DNA from: Arachidicoccus sp. BS20
GTDB lineage: Bacteria; Bacteroidota; Bacteroidia; Chitinophagales; Chitinophagaceae
Direction: 5' to 3'
Assembly (NCBI RefSeq): GCF_001659705.1
Contig: NZ_CP015971.1
Span: forward strand, 372,001 to 436,000
DNA: 64,000 nucleotides
The position numbers were made by a program, and so were the translations under genes. Positions 36,978 through 47,707 of this stretch are shown piece by piece; positions within the stretch are counted from its first letter, which is position 1; the number at the start of each line of letters is the position of its first letter. Below the pieces are notes generated by a model. It saw only the letters and a list, made by a program, of their open reading frames with translations, searched no databases and had not been told where the DNA came from.

Positions 36978-37589
36978 TTATATATTCTCCGCAAAATTAC
37001 GCAAAATTTGCTCTCCTACTTCCGCACTTTTTTCAGGATGAAACTGAACGCCGTAAAAATTGTTTTTGTGCAAAGCTGTACTGTACGGCTGCACATAATC
37101 GGCAGTTGCAATAGTATGCTCACCTAAAGCAGCAGCGTAACTGTGTACGAGATACACATAACTGTTTTCCTGTACGCCCGCAAACAACGGCGATTGCAAA
37201 TTATAAATATTGTTCCAACCAATCTGTGGAACTTTCAGCAGCCTCACCCCGTCCCTCTCCAAAGGAGAGGGTGAAAATAGCTTCACATCTTCATCAAAAA
37301 TGCCCAAGCATCGCGCATCGTTTTCTTCGCTGTGGCGGCACATCAGTTGCATTCCCAGACAAATACCCAATACGGGTTGTTGCAGGTTTTTGATGAGCGT
37401 ATCAAGATTACGCTCGCGCAAATATTTCATGGCGCTGCTCGCCTCGCCCACGCCGGGAAAAATCACTTTGTCGGCGGATAAAATTTCGTTCTCGTCATCC
37501 GTAACTTTTGCCGAAAAACCAATGCGCTCCAAAGCATATAAAACCGATTGAATGTTGCCTGCGTTGTATTTGATGATTGCGATGTTCAT
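36978..37589 (-). CDS. hisH: Imidazole glycerol phosphate synthase glutaminase subunit, with repeat-derived insertion
   Basis: The 203-residue class I glutaminase starts NIAIIKYNAGNIQSVLYALE and has the triad Cys77 (LGICLGMQ), His184 and Glu186 (VQFHPEKSAEVG). It supplies ammonia to HisF in histidine synthesis, but hisF and the other his genes are not in the window. Residues about 105-118 (FSPSPLERDGVRLL) are encoded by an extragenic palindromic repeat that has entered the frame; HisH normally passes at once from VKLF to KVPQIGWN. The reading frame is kept, so the protein is probably still active. Confidence 0.9.
   Translation of the reverse strand: MNIAIIKYNAGNIQSVLYALERIGFSAKVTDDENEILSADKVIFPGVGEASSAMKYLRERNLDTLIKNLQQPVLGICLGMQLMCRHSEENDARCLGIFDEDVKLFSPSPLERDGVRLLKVPQIGWNNIYNLQSPLFAGVQENSYVYLVHSYAAALGEHTIATADYVQPYSTALHKNNFYGVQFHPEKSAEVGEQILRNFAENI
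37243..37274. repeat. Palindromic repeat inserted inside hisH
   Basis: CCCTCTCC (37253-37260) and GGAGAGGG (37264-37271) form a perfect hairpin with loop AAA, flanked by CTCACCCCGT and TGA. This is the dispersed extragenic repeat that in many genomes reads PSPLERDGVR when translated. Here it lies in frame within hisH. Confidence 0.75.
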
Positions 37590-37805: not shown

Positions 37806-38576
37806 TCAAGGCAACACCGATTGCAAAAATTCTTTCGTAGCCGTTTCAATATCATCTGCATTTTGTAATGCTTTGATATACGCACTTCCGATAATTGCGC
37901 CGTTGGAATATTTGCAAACCGATTGAAAAGTTACTTTGTCCTTCACGCCGAAACCCGTTAAAATCGGGCATTTCAGCGAATACGACTGCAAGCGTTGCAA
38001 ATATTTTTCAACATCTTCAAAGCTTTTATCTTTTCCTGTTGTGGACGAAGAAGAAACGGCGTACAAAAATCCGGAACTCAATTCGTCCAGTTTTTTCACG
38101 CGCTCTTCTGAAGTTTCGGGCGTAACGAGAAAGATAAAATCCAATCCGTATTTTTTCATGATTGCGCTGTACTCTTTCTCAAAGCTTATTTGCGGCATAT
38201 CAGGCAAAATCAATCCGTCAATTCCGATAGCCGAAACATCTGCACAAAATTTTTCAAAACCGTATTGCAACACAGGATTTAAGTAACCCATCAGTACAAC
38301 AGGCACAGAAATATCTCCTCTGAAATTTTTTAATTGCTCCAACAAGACTTTTATCGTCATGCCGTTTTTCAGAGCCACACTCCCACTCTGCTGAATTACT
38401 TCGCCGTCCGCCAAAGGGTCACTGTACGGCATTCCCAATTCTATTAAATCGGCGCCGTTGTTTTGCAACGCTTTCATTACTTCCAACGTGCTGTTTAACT
38501 TCGGGAAACCTGCAGTACAATAGACATTCAGCACGTTTTTGTTTTTATTGTCGAATAAGTTTTTTATTCTGCTCAT
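37806..38576 (-). CDS. trpA: Tryptophan synthase alpha subunit
   Basis: The 256-residue TIM-barrel enzyme splits indole-3-glycerol phosphate to indole. Visible motifs: YCTAGFPKLNSTLEVMKALQ, DLIELGMPYSDPLADG with the catalytic Glu and Asp, GLILPDMP, TGFGVKDK, AIIGSAYIKAL. It is the last trp gene on the strand and is flanked on both sides by inverted copies of a double-hairpin repeat, which separates it from the preceding GNAT gene by about 100 bases. Confidence 0.95.
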   Translation of the reverse strand: MSRIKNLFDNKNKNVLNVYCTAGFPKLNSTLEVMKALQNNGADLIELGMPYSDPLADGEVIQQSGSVALKNGMTIKVLLEQLKNFRGDISVPVVLMGYLNPVLQYGFEKFCADVSAIGIDGLILPDMPQISFEKEYSAIMKKYGLDFIFLVTPETSEERVKKLDELSSGFLYAVSSSSTTGKDKSFEDVEKYLQRLQSYSLKCPILTGFGVKDKVTFQSVCKYSNGAIIGSAYIKALQNADDIETATKEFLQSVLP

Positions 38577-38674: not shown

Positions 38675-39274
38675 TTATAATTTCTTCCTCAAATTTTCTT
38701 TTACATGACCAAACCATTCATCTTTTAAAATGCTCAACACAATTGTATCACGTCTTCCATGTTCCATTGTTTTGTGGCTTCGCAAAACACCTTCAACTAC
38801 ACAACCAATGCTTTTCATCGCTGCGATACTTTTTTCATTTGTGTTATCTGCTTCAAACTGAACGCGCTCCATTTCCATTTCTTCAAAAGCAAATTGTAAC
38901 AACAAATATTTGCAATGCTTGTTCAATCCTGTTCCCTGAAAGTTCTTTCCATACCATGTAGAACCGATTGAAGTTGATTTGTGTAAAAATGAAATATCAT
39001 AAAATCTTGTGCTGCCTGCATATTCGTTTTTCGCTTTATCAAAAACAACAAACGGATAATGAATTTTATTCTCTCTTGATAATATAGCCATATCAACATA
39101 TTTTTTCAGATTCTCTTCGCCCGCTGCACCTGCATTAATCGGCGAATACTTCCAAAGCTCAGGTTCGTTCAAAGAAAATACACGTAAATGCTCGTCATCA
39201 GTGACTTTTAACGGACGAAGCAGAACTCGTTTGTCTTCTAAAACGTAATCTTTATTAAAATCGAAACTTAACAA
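38675..39274 (-). CDS. GNAT N-acetyltransferase (RimJ/RimL-like)
   Basis: The 199-residue protein has the GNAT start (LRPLKVTDDEHLRVFS), the acceptor region STSIGSTWYGKNFQGTGLNK and the coenzyme-A region (HCKYLLLQFAFEEMEMERVQ, then FEADNTNEKSIAAMKSIG). RimJ-like enzymes acetylate protein N-termini or small amines. It lies between trpB and trpA, 21 bases past trpB, so it is likely transcribed with them. It has no known role in tryptophan synthesis. Confidence 0.85.
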   Translation of the reverse strand: MLSFDFNKDYVLEDKRVLLRPLKVTDDEHLRVFSLNEPELWKYSPINAGAAGEENLKKYVDMAILSRENKIHYPFVVFDKAKNEYAGSTRFYDISFLHKSTSIGSTWYGKNFQGTGLNKHCKYLLLQFAFEEMEMERVQFEADNTNEKSIAAMKSIGCVVEGVLRSHKTMEHGRRDTIVLSILKDEWFGHVKENLRKKL

Positions 39275-39295: not shown

Positions 39296-40477
39296 TTATC
39301 CCATCGCTTTCATATAGGTATCCATATCCTTATCGCCTCTGCCGCTCAAACAAACTACAACAACATCTTCTTTTTTCAAATCCAGTTTCTTCAGTCCTGC
39401 CAATGCGTGCGAACTTTCCAGCGCAGGAATAATGCCTTCCAACCTTGTTAAATTAAATGCTGCTTCCAACGCTTCGTCATCAGTTGCACTTAAAAATATT
39501 CCTCTTTTGCTTTCAAACAAATGCGCGTGCAAAGGACCAATACCCGGATAATCCAAACCTGCGGAAATGCTGTGCGGTTCTACCACTTGCCCGTCTTCGG
39601 TTTGCATTACAATACTTTTACTGCCATGCAAAACGCCAAGCGTTCCAAGCTGTGTCGTAGCTGCGCTCATACCTGAATTTACGCCGTGTCCCGCTGCTTC
39701 AATGGCAACAAGTTTCACGCTTTCTTCATTCAGATAATGATAAAAAGTTCCTGCCGCATTGCTGCCGCCACCAACGCAGGCAACTAAATAATTAGGCAAT
39801 TCACTATTTGTTTTTTCTTTTAACTGCTTTCTTATTTCTTCGCTGATGACGCTTTGAAAACGCGCCACCATATCGGGATAAGGATGCGGACCAACAACAC
39901 TTCCGATTACATAATGCGTGTCCGCAGGATTGTTAATCCAATCGCGGATAGCCTCATTGGTGGCGTCTTTCAGCGTTTGGCTTCCGCTTTTTGCAGGAAC
40001 GACTTTTGCGCCGAGCATCTTCATTCTCGCTACATTCGGCGCTTGTCTTTCTATATCAATCGCACCCATGTACACGATACATTCCAAACCTTTTAACGCA
40101 CAAACTGTTGCCGTTGCCACGCCGTGTTGTCCCGCACCTGTCTCGGCAATAATGCGTTTTTTGCCTAATCGTTGTGCCAATAAAACTTGTCCGATGGCGT
40201 TGTTGATTTTGTGCGCGCCCGTATGATTGAGGTCTTCTCTTTTTAAATAAGTTGTTGCGCCGATTTGTTCGCTTAATCTTTCCGCCAAATACAACGGCGA
40301 CGGACGACCGACGTAATCCTTTAATAAATATTGAAATTCTTTCTGAAAAGAATCTTCGTACATTATCTCAAGATATTTCGATTTTAATTCTTCCACATTC
40401 GGATACAGCATCTCGGGAATGTACGCTCCGCCGAAGTTTCCGTAATATCCGTTTTCGTCTATTTCTATTTTACTCAT
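39296..40477 (-). CDS. trpB: Tryptophan synthase beta subunit
   Basis: The 393-residue PLP enzyme condenses indole with serine. Motifs: [20 protein letters not shown], the PLP lysine in [15 protein letters not shown] (about residue 85), [20 protein letters not shown], phosphate loop [27 protein letters not shown]. Length matches TrpB1. Upstream lies an unknown exported protein (14-base gap). Confidence 0.96.
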
Positions 40478-40491
40478 TGAATTTTTATTTT

Positions 40492-41523
40492 TTAAAAGCT
40501 GAACATATCATCCATAAATTCGCTGATTCGTTGCTGCCTTTGCTGATATTCATCAAGCGTTCTGCCGATAATTGTTTCAAACGTTTGATACAATGTCATC
40601 AACGAAAATGAAACATCGCCATCATAATCTTTGATTATTTTTTTACTGCCGTCTGTATAATAAATTGTCGTTACAATCGGCAACTTTTCATCTTGTATTG
40701 ATGAATTATAAACGGTGCTATCGCCTCTCAACGGAATGCTGCGCATCAAAGAATCAACGCTTCCCCACAACGCGGTTGTCATTCTCGCCTTAAAAGTTGA
40801 CGGCGTTTTAGAATCGGGCTGCATAATGCTGATAACCACGTTTGCATATTTTTCATTCAACTTCTCAACACTCAACTCTTTGTATGTATCAGGCTGAAAA
40901 TCCTTTACCAGATAATCAATTTTTTGTATATTTTTTTCATATAAATATTGCGAGTAATTCACAAAATTATCCAGCATATTGTGATAGCGCAACGTATCAA
41001 TTTTCAAAGGCAGCTTTAACGCTGCGTCTGCATCGGGCTGCCAACGATAAACTTTCAAATAATTGACAGTGTCGCTTGGAAGCACGTCAAAATACGAAGG
41101 AAATTTATCCAATTGGTCATCTATCAGATTCAGTTCCACATAACCGTTTCCACGTTGCGAAAGAAACACCAGCAGTTTGAAAGTGCTTGTATTCCAGTCT
41201 TTCGGGCGACGAGCGATATATCCGTTCACGATTAAATCGGGCTTTCCATCGCCGTTCACATCTGCCTTTTGCCAACTCGTGTGCTGCATATTTTCTTCAA
41301 CGGAAGCGACTTGCTGTGTACTTAAATTATAGTAACTTTTCCATTCTGTTCCATCCGTTAAATAAAAATGATTCCATTGCGGCGCATTGTCTTTATCATA
41401 ATTTTCCTGCTTCACATACGCTAAAACATCTGCATCGGAATTGACTTGCTGAACAGTTATATTCTGTGAATGAGCATAAATATTTTCTACTAAAAAAATT
41501 ATGCTAAAGAAAATCTTCTTCAT
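40492..41523 (-). CDS. Exported protein of unknown function with an FG-GAP-like motif
   Basis: I do not recognise a family. The 343-residue product has a signal peptide ([19 protein letters not shown]), then a stretch with [19 protein letters not shown], a calcium-loop-like DxNxDGxxD motif as in VCBS/FG-GAP repeats, and a mixed alpha/beta remainder ending in a helical, charged tail ([20 protein letters not shown]). It is probably periplasmic. It sits inside the trp operon; its ATG overlaps the trpF stop by one base (TAATG), so it is cotranslated. Such coupling implies it is a fixed part of the operon. Confidence 0.72.
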
Positions 41524-42164
41524 TAAACTAAGTTTTTAATTTCTTGCAGAAACTTTTCGGTTTTCGGAATATTTTTTACGCCGGGAGAAACCTCAAACCT
41601 GCTGTTTATGTCCAACGAAAATAAATGTTTTCCCGCATCCGTTTTTGTTAAAGAATGAATCGCTTCAATATCGTTTTCGTCAATGCCGCCACTCAAAAAA
41701 TACGGTTTACTGATGAACGAATTTTGCAAAATATTCCAGTCAAATTTCTTTCCTGTACCGCCATAATTTTTGGACGAAGTGTCGAACATAAAATAATCTG
41801 CAACATCAGAATAATCCTTTATTTTTTGTTCCAAATCTTCGGCGTCTTTCACGCCAAATGCTTTAATCACAGGCTTTTCAGAAGAAATAATTTTTACAAA
41901 TTCCGGCGATTCATCACCGTGAAGCTGCACTACATCAAGCCTGCAATTTTTTATTTTTAGAAAAATTTCTTCTGCCGAAGCATTTACAAACACACCGACA
42001 TTTTTAAAATTTCTATTGATATTTTTTATTTCATTTTCCGATAAATGATTCAACACATAGCGTGGCGATTTTTCGTAAAAAATAAAGCCGACGAAATCTG
42101 CGTTTAAATCGTTCAACGCATTTATTTGTTCAACTTGCGTCATGCCACAGACTTTAATTTTCAT
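41523..42164 (-). CDS. trpF: Phosphoribosylanthranilate isomerase
   Basis: The 213-residue TIM barrel starts MKIKVCGMTQVEQINALNDL with the catalytic Cys in KVCGMT, and has the second catalytic Asp in YFMFDTSSKNYGGTGKKFDW; then PYFLSGGIDENDIEAI and SRFEVSPGVKN. I start at 42164; an in-frame ATG further upstream (42239) would read through a repeat element. Coupled to the next gene by a one-base overlap. Confidence 0.94.
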   Translation of the reverse strand: MKIKVCGMTQVEQINALNDLNADFVGFIFYEKSPRYVLNHLSENEIKNINRNFKNVGVFVNASAEEIFLKIKNCRLDVVQLHGDESPEFVKIISSEKPVIKAFGVKDAEDLEQKIKDYSDVADYFMFDTSSKNYGGTGKKFDWNILQNSFISKPYFLSGGIDENDIEAIHSLTKTDAGKHLFSLDINSRFEVSPGVKNIPKTEKFLQEIKNLV

Positions 42165-42242: not shown

Positions 42243-43037
42243 TTAGCTTTCTATTACTTTTAATTGTTGAACATAATTCTTAAATGCTTCGCCCGGGTTT
42301 TCATGTTTCATAAAATTTTCGCCAATTAAAAATCCTTTGAAACCCGCGCTGCGCAACTGTTTTACCACTTCCACATTATCAATGCCGCTTTCCGCAATTG
42401 CTAATTTATCTTTCGGCAATTTGTTGAGTAAACGAATGGAATTTTCAATGTCCACTTCAAATGTTTTTAAGTTGCGGTTGTTCACGCCAACGAAATCCAC
42501 TTCGTCGCAAACGCACGCCAATTCATCATCTCCGTGAATTTCGAGCAACACTTCCAAATCCAGTTGCTTTGCATAAGTTGCCAATTCTTTCACACGTTGC
42601 GGATTTAAACAAGCTGCAATCAACAAGATAACATCCGCGCCGTTTGCACACGCTTCAAGAATCTGGTATTCATCAATCATAAAATCTTTTCGCAAAATCG
42701 GAATATTATTCTGTCTTGCCATTTTCAAATCTTCCAACGAACCGCCAAAGAAATCTTTGTCCGTCAAAACTGACAAACAACTTGCACCGTTTTCAGTATA
42801 AGCCTTTGTTACATCTTCAACTTTTGCATTGGCATTGATAATACCTTTCGATGGCGAACGGCGTTTAAATTCCGCGATAATGCCTGTTTTATTTTTATCT
42901 GTCAAAGATGCTTTCAAAGAAAAAGGCGTTCGCTGAAACATTGATGAACGCTGCAATTCAGCCTCACTCACTTTTTGCTTTGCTTCGGCAACTTCTTCAA
43001 TTTTTCGTTTGACTATTTTTTCTAAAATGTTTTTCAC
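42243..43037 (-). CDS. trpC: Indole-3-glycerol phosphate synthase
   Basis: The 264-residue enzyme closes the indole ring. Motifs: IIAEFKRRSPSKGIINANAK with the catalytic Glu and Lys, ASCLSVLTDKDFFGGSLEDL, PILRKDFMIDEYQILEA, GVNNRNLKTFEVD, IAESGIDNVEVVKQLRSAGF. Length is typical. The gap to trpF (78 bases) holds a repeat. Confidence 0.95.
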   Translation of the reverse strand: MKNILEKIVKRKIEEVAEAKQKVSEAELQRSSMFQRTPFSLKASLTDKNKTGIIAEFKRRSPSKGIINANAKVEDVTKAYTENGASCLSVLTDKDFFGGSLEDLKMARQNNIPILRKDFMIDEYQILEACANGADVILLIAACLNPQRVKELATYAKQLDLEVLLEIHGDDELACVCDEVDFVGVNNRNLKTFEVDIENSIRLLNKLPKDKLAIAESGIDNVEVVKQLRSAGFKGFLIGENFMKHENPGEAFKNYVQQLKVIES

Positions 43038-43095: not shown

Positions 43096-43539
43096 TCACG
43101 GAGTATATTTCATAAAATATTTCAGTTCATCTTCTTTCCAGACTTTAAAATTCATTCTTTTATATAAATTAATCGCGCCTGTATTGAGTTTCAACACTTC
43201 TAATGAAACTGTTTTATTTTGTTTAAAAATTTCACTCAATAAATATGTTCCGATTCCCTTTTTCTGAAAATCAGTTGTGATAAAAAGGCTGCCGATAAAA
43301 ATCTCATCTTCGTTTTCTTTCGTCTGGATAAATCCTGCAACTTCATTTTCAAACAGAATAAATTTTACTTCTTTATACGAAGTATTTTCTTTTAAAAACT
43401 GTCGTTGAAAATTTTCTTCCCATCCCCAAACCAGCTCCACATAAGGCTTTATGGAATTTTCTTTGATTTGATACATCAAATCATAATCGTCTTCTGTCGC
43501 GTTTCTCAAACTTATTTTATCATTCATTTTGTTTTCCAA
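43096..43539 (-). CDS. GNAT N-acetyltransferase
   Basis: The 147-residue protein begins ISLRNATEDDYDLMYQIKEN and has the acetyl-CoA loop FITTDFQKKGIGTYLLSEIF and the C-terminal TGAINLYKRMNFKVW signature. The second GNAT gene inside the trp operon, between trpD and trpC. Its target is unknown. The start may be the Met at 43539 or the Met four residues on; there is no clear ribosome site. Confidence 0.85.
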   Translation of the reverse strand: MENKMNDKISLRNATEDDYDLMYQIKENSIKPYVELVWGWEENFQRQFLKENTSYKEVKFILFENEVAGFIQTKENEDEIFIGSLFITTDFQKKGIGTYLLSEIFKQNKTVSLEVLKLNTGAINLYKRMNFKVWKEDELKYFMKYTP

Positions 43540-43552
43540 TTAATCCCAAAAA

Positions 43553-44554
43553 TCAACCCAAATCCTCGTTCAGACTTATTAACTTCTGTAAACATTGATG
43601 CGCTTTTCCGCTTTCCAGGCTATCCACCGCCGCACTAAAAGCGTCATCATAAGTTGTATATTTTCCCGTACAATGCAGCGCCATCGCGGCATTTGCCAGT
43701 ACAACGGAATTTTGCGCCCAGCTTCCTTTGCCATTGATAATTTTTTTAAACAAACCCGAGGCTTCTTCCAAAGTGTTGCCGCCGAAAATATCCTGCGCAT
43801 CCACTTGCCGTTTTCCCAACTGTTCCGGCGTGGCAATGTATTCGCCTTTATCGGATAAAACTTTGGTGTCGCTCGTCAAAGAAATTTCGTCATAACCATC
43901 CAAACTATGCACAATCGTAAACGCTTTGCCGCTTTGCTGCAACAGATAATTATACAAACGCGCCATTTCCAAATTATAAACGCCCAGCAACTGAAACTTA
44001 GGTCCGGCGGGATTTACAAGCGGACCGAGCATATTGAAAAATGTTCGCAATCCAAGATTTTTTCTAATCGGCGCAACAGTTTTTAATGCCGGATGAAACG
44101 CAGGCGCATGCAAAAAACAAATATTTGCTTCATCCAATTCTTTCTTCAGCAACGCTTCATCAGACTTGAATTTGTAACCCAATTGTTCCATTACATTCGA
44201 CGAACCGGAAATCGAAGATGCGCCGTAGTTTCCATGCTTTGCAACTTTTTGCCCTGTGCCTGCAACAATAAAACAAGCCAACGTTGAAATGTTGAAAGTG
44301 TTTTTTCCGTCGCCACCTGTGCCGACAATATCGATTAAATCATTGCCTAAATCAATCTTTACGGAAAGCTCCAAAAGTGCGTCAGTAAAGCCTTGCAGCT
44401 CGTCAATGGTAATGCTGCGCATAAGAAACACCGTAACAAACGACGTAATTTCATACTCGTTGTACAAGCTTTTGGAAATATTGATTAAGGCTTCTTTTGC
44501 CTGCTCGCGCGAAAGTGTTTTATAGTCGAATAAATATTGTAATAACTTTTTCAT
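43553..44554 (-). CDS. trpD: Anthranilate phosphoribosyltransferase
   Basis: The 333-residue enzyme (start at 44554, MKKLLQYLFDY) has the family signature DIVGTGGDGKNTFNISTLAC, then KHGNYGASSISGSSNVMEQL, PVHHP-like region AFHPALKTVAPIRKNLGLRT and FFNMLGPLVNPAGPKFQLLG. It attaches phosphoribose to anthranilate. The longer frame from 44647 would include an intergenic repeat and is rejected. Confidence 0.95.
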   Translation of the reverse strand: MKKLLQYLFDYKTLSREQAKEALINISKSLYNEYEITSFVTVFLMRSITIDELQGFTDALLELSVKIDLGNDLIDIVGTGGDGKNTFNISTLACFIVAGTGQKVAKHGNYGASSISGSSNVMEQLGYKFKSDEALLKKELDEANICFLHAPAFHPALKTVAPIRKNLGLRTFFNMLGPLVNPAGPKFQLLGVYNLEMARLYNYLLQQSGKAFTIVHSLDGYDEISLTSDTKVLSDKGEYIATPEQLGKRQVDAQDIFGGNTLEEASGLFKKIINGKGSWAQNSVVLANAAMALHCTGKYTTYDDAFSAAVDSLESGKAHQCLQKLISLNEDLG

Positions 44555-44738: not shown

Positions 44739-45311
44739 TTATTTAGAAAGCCAATTCTCCAAAATCCTCACTCCATCAGGTGTCAGCACACTTTCAGGAT
44801 GAAACTGCACCCCTTGCACATCGTACGTTTTATGTTGCAGCGCCATGATGAAACCTTGTTCATCAACAGCCGTAATATCCAACACATCCGCAAGGAAATT
44901 TTTATTGCTCACTACCCAACTGTGATATCGACCAATCGTAAACTCATCGCTTAAACCCTTGAACAGCGGGCTTTTTACGGAAGTTTGTTTACAAGTTGTT
45001 GCTACGCCATGAAAAACATCCGTGAGATTTTCAAGTGTTGCGCCAAATGCTTCACCAATTGCCTGTTCGCCCAAACACACGCCGAGTATAGATTTTGTGG
45101 GCGCATATTCCTTAATCACATCCAACAAAATTCCCGCTTCATTCGGAATGCCCGGACCGGGCGATAAAATTATTTTATCGTATTTATTTACTTCTTCCAA
45201 AGCAATTTTATCGTTGCGGAACACATCTACTTTTTGTTGCAGAATGCGCTCGACAATATGTACTAAATTGTAGGTAAATGAATCGTAATTATCTAAAACT
45301 AAAACACGCAT
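44739..45311 (-). CDS. trpG: Anthranilate synthase glutamine amidotransferase (component II)
   Basis: The 190-residue class I amidotransferase starts MRVLVLDNYDSFTYNLVHIV, with ILSPGPGIPNEAGI and catalytic Cys79 (GVCLGEQAIGE), and His/Glu in GVQFHPESVLTPDG. It gives ammonia to TrpE. The same protein could serve para-aminobenzoate synthase, as in many bacteria. Confidence 0.95.
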   Translation of the reverse strand: MRVLVLDNYDSFTYNLVHIVERILQQKVDVFRNDKIALEEVNKYDKIILSPGPGIPNEAGILLDVIKEYAPTKSILGVCLGEQAIGEAFGATLENLTDVFHGVATTCKQTSVKSPLFKGLSDEFTIGRYHSWVVSNKNFLADVLDITAVDEQGFIMALQHKTYDVQGVQFHPESVLTPDGVRILENWLSK

Positions 45312-46918: not shown

Positions 46919-47308
46919 TTATATAATTGGTTTGAATTTGTTGTTATACAAGCGTTTCCATTCAAGGCTGTTCGCCCCGAAATTGATAAGCAAACCGACT
47001 TCTAAATTAAATGCTTCCAAATAATTTTTTCCTTGCGCAAGATGTGCCGATTCTAATTTGCCAAACGCTTTTAATTCAACGCTGATAATATTTTCCACTA
47101 AAAAATCAACTCTTCTGTCTCCAACTTTTACGCTTTTATAAAATACAGGCATACTTACTTCTCTCCCGAAATTTATATTCATTAAATTAAACTCCACTTC
47201 CAAAGACCGTTGATAAACGATTTCAGGAAAACCATTCCCTGATGCATTGTGAACATTCATTGCAGCCTTGATAATTTTTTCTGTTATGTCGCTATACTTA
47301 TACTCCAT
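46919..47308 (-). CDS. GxxExxY family protein
   Basis: The 129-residue protein (ATG at 47308) has the family phrase GNGFPEIVYQRSLEVEFN (Gly..Glu..Tyr) and the nuclease-like core FGREVSMPVFYKSVKVGDRR, VDFLVENIISVELKAFGKLE, LEVGLLINFGANSLEWKR. GxxExxY proteins occur singly and have no proven function; they resemble small restriction-type endonucleases. It is the first gene after the trp leader, 32 bases before trpE, so it is controlled by the attenuator. The longer frame from 47356 would overlap the terminator stem and is less likely. Confidence 0.85.
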   Translation of the reverse strand: MEYKYSDITEKIIKAAMNVHNASGNGFPEIVYQRSLEVEFNLMNINFGREVSMPVFYKSVKVGDRRVDFLVENIISVELKAFGKLESAHLAQGKNYLEAFNLEVGLLINFGANSLEWKRLYNNKFKPII

Positions 47309-47352
47309 TTTATTTTCAGTAAAATCAGAAAAATCGTTTAAAATCAAGATAA

Positions 47353-47386
47353 ACAAAAAGCCCCGGCGAATTTATCGCCGAGGCTT
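47353..47386 (-). terminator. trp attenuator terminator hairpin
   Basis: On the minus strand AAGCCTCGGCGA (47386-47375) pairs with TCGCCGGGGCTT (47369-47358) with one mismatch, followed by a run of Ts (47357-47353). It lies 45 bases before the GxxExxY ATG and after the leader peptide. A competing pairing of its 5' arm with leader sequence at 47451-47434 would be the antiterminator. Confidence 0.8.
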
Positions 47387-47419
47387 GAATATTTTTTGTT
47401 ACCCGATTTTCATTTTTCT

Positions 47420-47494
47420 ATAAACAAAGTGCTATTCAAACATACCCGACGCAGAGTTTGCTTGCCACCACCAATGAATATTTACTTTGTTTAT
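47420..47494. promoter_or_regulatory. trp leader RNA structure (bracketing repeat and antiterminator partner)
   Basis: ATAAACAAAGT (minus 47494-47484) is complementary to ACTTTGTTTAT (47430-47420), folding the Trp-codon region. The minus-strand words CGTCGGG (47451-47445) and TTGAAT (47439-47434) can pair with ATTCAAGCCTCGGCG (47390-47376), the terminator's 5' arm, through two short helices with G-U pairs. This is the expected attenuator switch; pairing was read by eye. Confidence 0.65.
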
Positions 47495-47500
47495 CAACAT
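47432..47500 (-). CDS. trpL: trp operon leader peptide with three consecutive Trp codons
   Basis: The 22-codon frame runs from ATG at 47500-47498 to TAG at 47434-47432. Codons 10-12 are TGG TGG TGG (47473-47465), right in front of the terminator hairpin. The peptide has no similarity to anything but such leaders, and its Trp content (3 of 22) is the classic signal for tryptophan attenuation: a ribosome stalls here when charged tRNA-Trp is scarce. A perfect 11-bp inverted repeat (47484-47494 with 47420-47430) brackets the Trp codons, and an antiterminator pairing is possible. A possible -7 box TATCTTCG (47512-47505) lies 4 bases before the ATG, so the leader may be leaderless. Confidence 0.85.
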   Translation of the reverse strand: MLINKVNIHWWWQANSASGMFE

Positions 47501-47707
47501 GGTGCGAAGATAAAATGTTTTTTGAAATGGAGAAAAATATTTTTGAAGAAACACATAAAACAACATTCAAATAAAGACACTGTCGATGATAATTAAAACA
47601 TATTTTTTATAGGCTTTTTATTTTTTTCACTTTAATTCTATACTTTTAAAACCTTAATTAACGTTGGTTATCCTATTAGAATAATTTGTATTATATTAAA
47701 AACGTTT

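Follow-up and report, generated by a model that had tools for sequence, protein, structure and literature searches.

In the trp attenuator of Escherichia coli, the Trp codons lie in segment 1 of a leader whose segments pair as 1:2, 2:3 and 3:4; the 2010 work of Lopatovskaya et al. is reportedly a comparative paper. The classical trp attenuators of Corynebacterium and Streptomyces possess leaders with double or triple UGG codons (PMC1262725), and in Sinorhizobium meliloti the trpL RNA starts with the ATG of its leader frame (PMC7298713). Leaderless polycysteine attenuators of mycobacteria appear as a title in the reference list of PMC13236596. The Rfam element Bacteroid-trp (RF01692) stems from Weinberg et al. 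(2010), where it is entered as cis-regulatory in a table (PMC2864571). It is mentioned before the trp operon of F. psychrophilum (PMC6414381), and strong clues for leader-peptide attenuation before amino-acid operons have been described (PMC9723704).

Within the window, namely the whole stretch of 64,000 nucleotides analysed here, a short gene with three Trp codons is very probably a switch of a familiar kind, through which the trp genes would be read only at tryptophan shortage. More specifically, we consider it highly probable from sequence and modelling that this element functions as a ribosome-mediated transcription attenuator of the trp operon, with a leader peptide read from a leaderless or nearly leaderless 5' end. 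Its parts are as follows.

47505..47512, minus strand: -7 promoter box TATCTTCG, read from the sequence, 4 nt before the leader ATG; same spacing in three same-genus genomes
47500..47500, minus strand: predicted transcription start at the A of the leader ATG (leaderless), from the box-to-ATG distance
47432..47500, minus strand: leader peptide frame MLINKVNIHWWWQANSASGMFE, read from the sequence; a short WW frame stands before trpE in 135/138 family loci
47465..47473, minus strand: regulatory codons TGG TGG TGG (Trp x3), read from the sequence; WWW in 121/135 family leaders
47475..47494, minus strand: segment 1 (ATAAACAAAGT + TATTCA), which by folding pairs with 47420-47438 in this genome's protector hairpin
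47433..47453, minus strand: segment 2, the frame end, CGTCGGG(TAT)GTTTGAATA, antiterminator partner of segment 3; fold P 0.997 when a ribosome occupies the Trp codons; relatives show covariation
47376..47391, minus strand: segment 3, TATTCAAGCCTCGGCG, common to the antiterminator and the 5' arm of the terminator; folds and covariation
47351..47386, minus strand: intrinsic terminator, stem 47386-47358, T-rich tail to 47351; sequence, fold and covariation, with a terminator in 132/135 family leaders

The leader frame runs on the minus strand from its ATG at 47500 to a stop ending at 47432 and is read directly as 22 codons, including three consecutive TGG codons at 47473-47465, just as a preliminary description of this DNA had it. 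The GC-rich terminator with a T-run behind the frame, the pairing of its 5' arm with the leader in two helices and the -7-like box 4 bases before the ATG (positions 47512-47505), all claimed in that description, are likewise borne out. The terminator stem comprises 12 pairs, one of them G-U. With a ribosome footprint placed on the Trp codons, 47451-47433 pairs with 47391-47376 as two helices (CGUCGGG and GUUUGAAUA). The region 47340-47512 folds with z = -6.0, and none of 200 shuffles folds equally well. The perfect 11-bp repeat noted earlier around the Trp codons is present, as an inverted repeat, but is rejected as a conserved element: among the four genomes of the genus it is private to this one, the longest equivalent in the other three being 6 bp.

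The arrangement resembles the E. coli trp attenuator in its Trp codons within segment 1 and its 1:2, 2:3 and 3:4 pairings, and departs from it in having three Trp codons, a segment 2 inside the frame end and a predicted leaderless start. With Corynebacterium and Streptomyces it shares complementary triples common to terminator and antiterminator, although those genera belong to another phylum and use a GGCC-type triple in contrast to the CCCCG-type found in most leaders here (PMC1262725).

A complete trp operon follows the attenuator on the minus strand, in the gene order GxxExxY, trpE, trpG, trpD, acetyltransferase, trpC, trpF, weak FG-GAP protein, trpB, weakly acetyltransferase-like protein, trpA. 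The assigned genes are these.

46919..47308, minus strand: GxxExxY protein (PDDEXK_3), between attenuator and trpE; PF13366, TIGR04256
45465..46886, minus strand: trpE, anthranilate synthase component I; TIGR00564 at 399.5 bits, best of 26, below the equivalog cut-off of 517.7; place in the operon
44739..45311, minus strand: trpG; TIGR00566 above cut-off
43553..44554, minus strand: trpD; TIGR01245 above cut-off
42243..43037, minus strand: trpC; NF001377 above cut-off
41523..42164, minus strand: trpF; NF002298 at 177 bits, below the cut-off of 215; place in the operon
39296..40477, minus strand: trpB; TIGR00263 above cut-off
37806..38576, minus strand: trpA; TIGR00262 above cut-off, PF00290

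TrpE and TrpF are named because of their best NCBIfam scores, which lie under the cut-offs, together with their neighbourhood. Since the GxxExxY gene sits between the attenuator and trpE, it would share trp control. Among the trp genes, on the same strand, are the acetyltransferase (43096-43539), the weak FG-GAP match (40492-41523) and the weakly acetyltransferase-like protein (38675-39274). After trpA, again on the same strand, comes hisH (36978-37589, TIGR01855 above cut-off), hisG being elsewhere in the genome. The window's genome yields no match to the TrpR family.

For comparison, we collected the region upstream of trpE from 138 genomes of the window's family and from 60 that belong to other families within the phylum, the latter drawn from 95 genomes with a TrpE match; the partial TrpE hits of genomes G128, G183 and G059 were left out. 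Frames of up to 34 codons with WW were accepted as short leader frames, and terminators within 140 nt of the frame were counted. By these measures a short WW frame lies upstream of trpE in 135/138 family loci and 57/60 loci of other families, and a terminator stands behind it in 132/135 and 57/57 cases, respectively.

The distance from the -7 box to the ATG points to a leader without a 5' untranslated region. In Flavobacterium johnsoniae and F. psychrophilum, counting from the start site, the -7 element spans -12 to -5 (PMC6847099, PMC9723704); with the box ending 4 nt before the ATG, the start is therefore predicted at the A of the ATG. The spacing of TATCTTCG to the ATG is 4 nt in all four same-genus genomes, and in 116/135 family leaders it is 4-9 nt (mode 7), so that 5' UTRs of 0-5 nt are predicted. 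In contrast, the family whose genomes match Bacteroid-trp (f5) has the box 16-18 nt from the ATG in 9/16 leaders. None of 192 leaders has GGAG, GAGG or AGGA at -18 to -4 of the leader ATG, an absence expected because the phylum lacks Shine-Dalgarno sequences (PMC6847099). The leader peptide of the window's family is probably leaderless, and the probable leaderless start appears to be a special trait of this trp attenuator variant. Leaderless mRNAs are a minority in the phylum, at 5.5% in F. psychrophilum (PMC9723704); 5' UTRs under 10 nt make up about 3.7% in Bacteroides thetaiotaomicron (PMC7366714), and 87% of leaders in F. johnsoniae exceed 10 nt (PMC6847099). The comparison supports the earlier reading of a leaderless peptide. 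The accompanying remark that this is unusual for attenuators holds only in part, given the S. meliloti trpL start (PMC7298713) and the mycobacterial leaderless attenuators cited by title (PMC13236596).

The likeness to S. meliloti trpL, whose short RNA begins at the leader ATG as is predicted here, raises a second possible role alongside attenuation: either the peptide or the leader RNA released by termination (about 145 nt) might also act in trans, like rnTrpL/peTrpL. The layout is similar, with trpL starting at its ATG and the released short RNA active in trans (PMC7298713). S. meliloti belongs to another phylum and makes a 14-residue peptide, with trans roles known there. In our leaders the N-terminal residues of the peptide vary. 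Given also that the cis role accounts for the stretches that are conserved (WWW and segments 1-4), an additional trans function seems unlikely.

To examine the three alternative helices, which exclude one another, we aligned 60 family leaders (alignment A1) chosen by hand from 117 eligible ones. RNAalifold on A1 returns the terminator together with a second hairpin, whose one side consists of the Trp codons plus the bases that follow and whose other side is the frame end plus bases beyond the stop. The terminator helix (3:4) is paired in 95.7% of cells, with changes on both sides in 47 cells; the protector helix (1:2) is paired in 95.3%, with both-side changes in 5 cells, its Trp side being invariant and the partners mostly switching C<->U or A<->G with the pair kept. 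In the antiterminator (2:3), the last-codon CGGGGCUU pairs with AAGCCCCG. This helix, the least tight of the three, is paired in 85.1% of cells against 82.5 +/- 0.6 in shuffles (slid controls, below 60%), with six of eight pairs changed on both sides and a covariation of 0.218 against 0.175 +/- 0.011 in shuffles, a type of control that overstates significance when sequences are related. Taken leader by leader, the pairing of segment 2 with its own terminator arm exceeds 95% of its shuffles in 101/132 family leaders; outside the family, where the layout may differ, 16/57 leaders pass. Family-wide, the region before trpE thus retains the complete set of attenuation parts claimed for the window, and each of the three alternative helices covaries. 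Alignment of relatives, suggested in the preliminary description as a check on conserved WWW and compensatory stem changes, reveals both.

Codon usage follows the same pattern. Among 68 leaders of one length, the Asn after WWW is AAC in 60/60 and the Asn at codon 7 is AAT in 56/61, so that codon choice, as far as sequence can tell, fits the helices. This bears upon a TnaC-like arrest peptide, in which stalling would arise from the nascent peptide and free tryptophan instead of a shortage of Trp-tRNA. Peptide conservation does continue past WWW, as H-T-N-S-x-R-G-L in many leaders, but it tracks RNA pairing (the AAC and ACA codons and the CGGGGCUU stretch), and N/I, T/S and S/L exchanges preserve the pairing bases. 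Moreover, the downstream genes make tryptophan, and stalling at high tryptophan would turn them on when unneeded. We regard such an arrest peptide as very improbable.

Frames with WWW starting from ATG occur in 120/138 family regions upstream of trpE compared to 0/690 dinucleotide shuffles, and frames that also have a -7 box 4-9 nt upstream in 108/138 compared to 0/690; the leader frame is 19 or 20 codons long in 106/135 family leaders. Were the terminator controlled by a ligand-binding RNA or by a protein bound to the leader, as with TRAP, the frame would be incidental, and termination through alternative folds alone would look much like this near the terminator; the recurrence of WWW and the constancy of frame length argue against it, and we hold such control to be extremely improbable. 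Weaker sequence criteria are less telling. Frames with WW only can arise by chance, 25/690 shuffles holding one, and the bare pattern ATG-N6-36-TGGTGGTGG matches ten times in the genome, as does its reversed control. The bare codon pattern is not rare in the genome, and we therefore dropped the argument from it and placed the weight on position, context and conservation. That an ordinary constitutive terminator or a chance small frame stands here with no regulation, as those ten matches in pattern and control alike might suggest, is similarly close to excluded by the conservation and covariation of the leader.

Six loci lacking a WW frame were inspected (L146, L049, L052, L139, L166 and L197). 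At L146 a leader with a single Trp lies upstream of trpE, and at L049 and L052, both of family f3, translation by eye reveals W-L-W leaders before trpE; these three leaders look like weaker versions of the sensor. Inspection of the trpE upstream regions of L139, L166 and L197 revealed no leader; a covariance model of the 60 A1 leaders (R1) scores genome G139 at that place with E 2.6e-7. The WW-only pick at L190, 503 nt upstream, is doubtful.

To compare the states of the attenuator, each of 132 leaders was folded to the end of segment 3 with the ribosome footprint masked. In the window's leader, a ribosome placed on the Trp codons gives a predicted antiterminator (-22.4 kcal/mol, P 0.997). When the ribosome sits at the stop instead, the antiterminator is not clear (-7.6, P 0.60 of weak upstream pairing); the fold that lacks a ribosome has the protector hairpin (-24.9, P 0.41). 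The mean P over the 132 leaders is 0.77, 0.37 and 0.32 for the Trp codons, the stop and no ribosome, respectively; the stalled state exceeds the stop state by more than 0.1 in 108/132 leaders, with the reverse in 3. Once segment 2 is shuffled, P drops from 0.77 to 0.50; in 90/132 cases, where 26 are expected, the real leader does better than all four of its shuffles. Full-length folding favours the terminator in every state (mean P 0.81-0.88); therefore, the order of events during transcription, that is, kinetics, must decide. The parts, their conservation, the covariation of three helices and this predicted folding of the states are direct results of the analysis. By sequence and modelling, the leader holds an antiterminator that would exclude the terminator and would be freed by a ribosome on the regulatory codons.

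We infer the start site, translation, stalling and tryptophan response in the following scheme. RNA polymerase would begin on the A of the leader ATG or on a neighbouring base, after which a ribosome would load onto the 5'-terminal AUG. With ample Trp-tRNA, the ribosome would pass WWW, reach the stop and cover segment 2, leaving segments 3 and 4 to pair and transcription to end near 47355. When Trp-tRNA is scarce, it would stall on WWW and cover segment 1; segment 2, left free, would pair with segment 3 ahead of segment 4 synthesis, allowing read-through to the GxxExxY gene and on to the trp genes. An untranslated leader would fold into the protector hairpin, and termination would be the default.

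In its place before trp genes, its terminator, its lack of a Shine-Dalgarno sequence and the M-K...-WWW leader present in the Rfam consensus, the element is like Bacteroid-trp. RF01692 itself finds no match in the window at the gathering score, in the region at E up to 10, or in the window's genome. Run on 15 of 30 family loci, it reaches at best 41.7 bits (L024) against a cut-off of 49, and membership is rejected at scores below those 49 bits; the model matches 13/148 genomes of the phylum, 11 of them over the cut-off and all 13 in family f5. The Trp_leader model RF00513 has no match in the window region, its best relative (L030) reaching 33.0 bits against a cut-off of 41, and is likewise rejected, as are His_leader (RF00514; 20.8 bits, cut-off 49) and the matches in the region to isrJ, STnc240 and AaHKsRNA20, each under its cut-off. 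The evidence supports well an element that would work like Bacteroid-trp without being a scoring member; we class it as a diverged variant within a known type of control. Our literature search, whose coverage left out most subscription journals, found no description of this version of the trp leader. The earlier statement that attenuation is poorly described in this group is thus correct insofar as the RF01692 model misses this version, and too strong insofar as Rfam already holds Bacteroid-trp.

Attenuation of trp by WW(W) leaders would accordingly extend to nearly all genomes of the family examined and to most of those sampled from other families, in a version missed by the current Rfam model. 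A leaderless leader also bears on how the first ribosome would pace RNA polymerase in organisms without Shine-Dalgarno sequences. Model R1, which can annotate the element and also led to a possible many-tRNA attenuator, scores 100.1 bits at the window's trp leader and matches 133/147 family genomes at E up to 0.1, counting weak matches and places anywhere in the genome. A weak R1 match at 2693-2828 of the window (24.9 bits, E 0.009) was rejected; it holds no leader and overlaps the end of an 80-residue frame.

Secondary R1 matches led to further putative attenuator leaders, before other amino-acid genes in the window's genome. Before hisG, the leader MILNVHTHHHHFLSKG (L255) has a -7 box 4 nt from its ATG and a terminator, with counterparts in three same-genus genomes (L253, L254 and L256), and is probably a leaderless his attenuator. 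Before asd stands the Lys/Thr-rich leader MSNIKKHTKKIKPSHKEG (L257; box at 12 nt; same-genus counterparts L258-L260); leaders of this type (L257-L260, L231, L232 and L238) have GGAAGG at the frame end and CCTTCC in the terminator arm. The pheA leader MFSRVTYYFGFYFSFFFRRKRVGFCN (L249), read by eye, has no close -7 box. Phe/Tyr-rich leaders (L249, L233, L237 and L240) precede prephenate dehydratase and an aminotransferase.

The most novel lead of the analysis is a putative attenuator whose leader peptide contains nearly every amino acid. On balance we find it plausible that trp attenuation represents one application of a plan shared within the family, seen here also with his, asd and pheA, and that the plan was adapted to serve as a general tRNA sensor, with a leader of about 30 residues and nearly all 20 amino acids, placed over arrays of tRNA genes and over genes for RNA repair (RtcB, TROVE/Ro60, RNase H-like, SPFH, AAA). 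On the simplest reading, such an attenuator possibly stalls for lack of almost any aminoacyl-tRNA and so switches on tRNA and RNA-repair genes. If true, shortage or cleavage of almost any tRNA would turn on both. The general sensor job is comparable to that of RtcR in a Salmonella operon (PMC7790460). A literature search found no report of an all-amino-acid leader.

Outside the window, at C1:274928-275017 (plus strand; L265, L291), the window's genome encodes the 30-residue leader MQRKSLHKELAYWFSPMTDYSYCGAYCAVE; a terminator comes behind it, and so do 14 tRNA genes. This copy contains 18 different amino acids, Ile and Asn being missing, and has no close spacing between its -7 box and the ATG; the all-amino-acid leader is therefore not leaderless. 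Across 191 family genomes, a profile of eight such peptides picks out 31 places (E up to 1.1e-4); in a class-wide sample it finds 2/247 genomes, one of them the window's. Thirty places were fetched (L261-L290), and 28 were usable once L281 and L286, where another frame had been picked, were dropped. All 28 possess a terminator, and 27/28 show significant pairing of the frame end with the terminator arm. tRNA genes lie within about 1.6 kb at 16/28 fetched loci, and homologues of RtcB, TROVE, RNase H-like or AAA proteins were found by tblastn at 15/28; one or both occur at 26/28, and neither at L269, which lies at a contig end, or at L270. The 27 distinct peptides contain 15-20 different amino acids, with a mean of 18.0 and all 20 in three of them, compared to means of 14.7-15.7 for random 30-mers. 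Among 17 aligned 30-mers, the mean is 18.5 versus 17.4 +/- 0.2 after column shuffling (0/2000), a figure that relatedness makes too optimistic.
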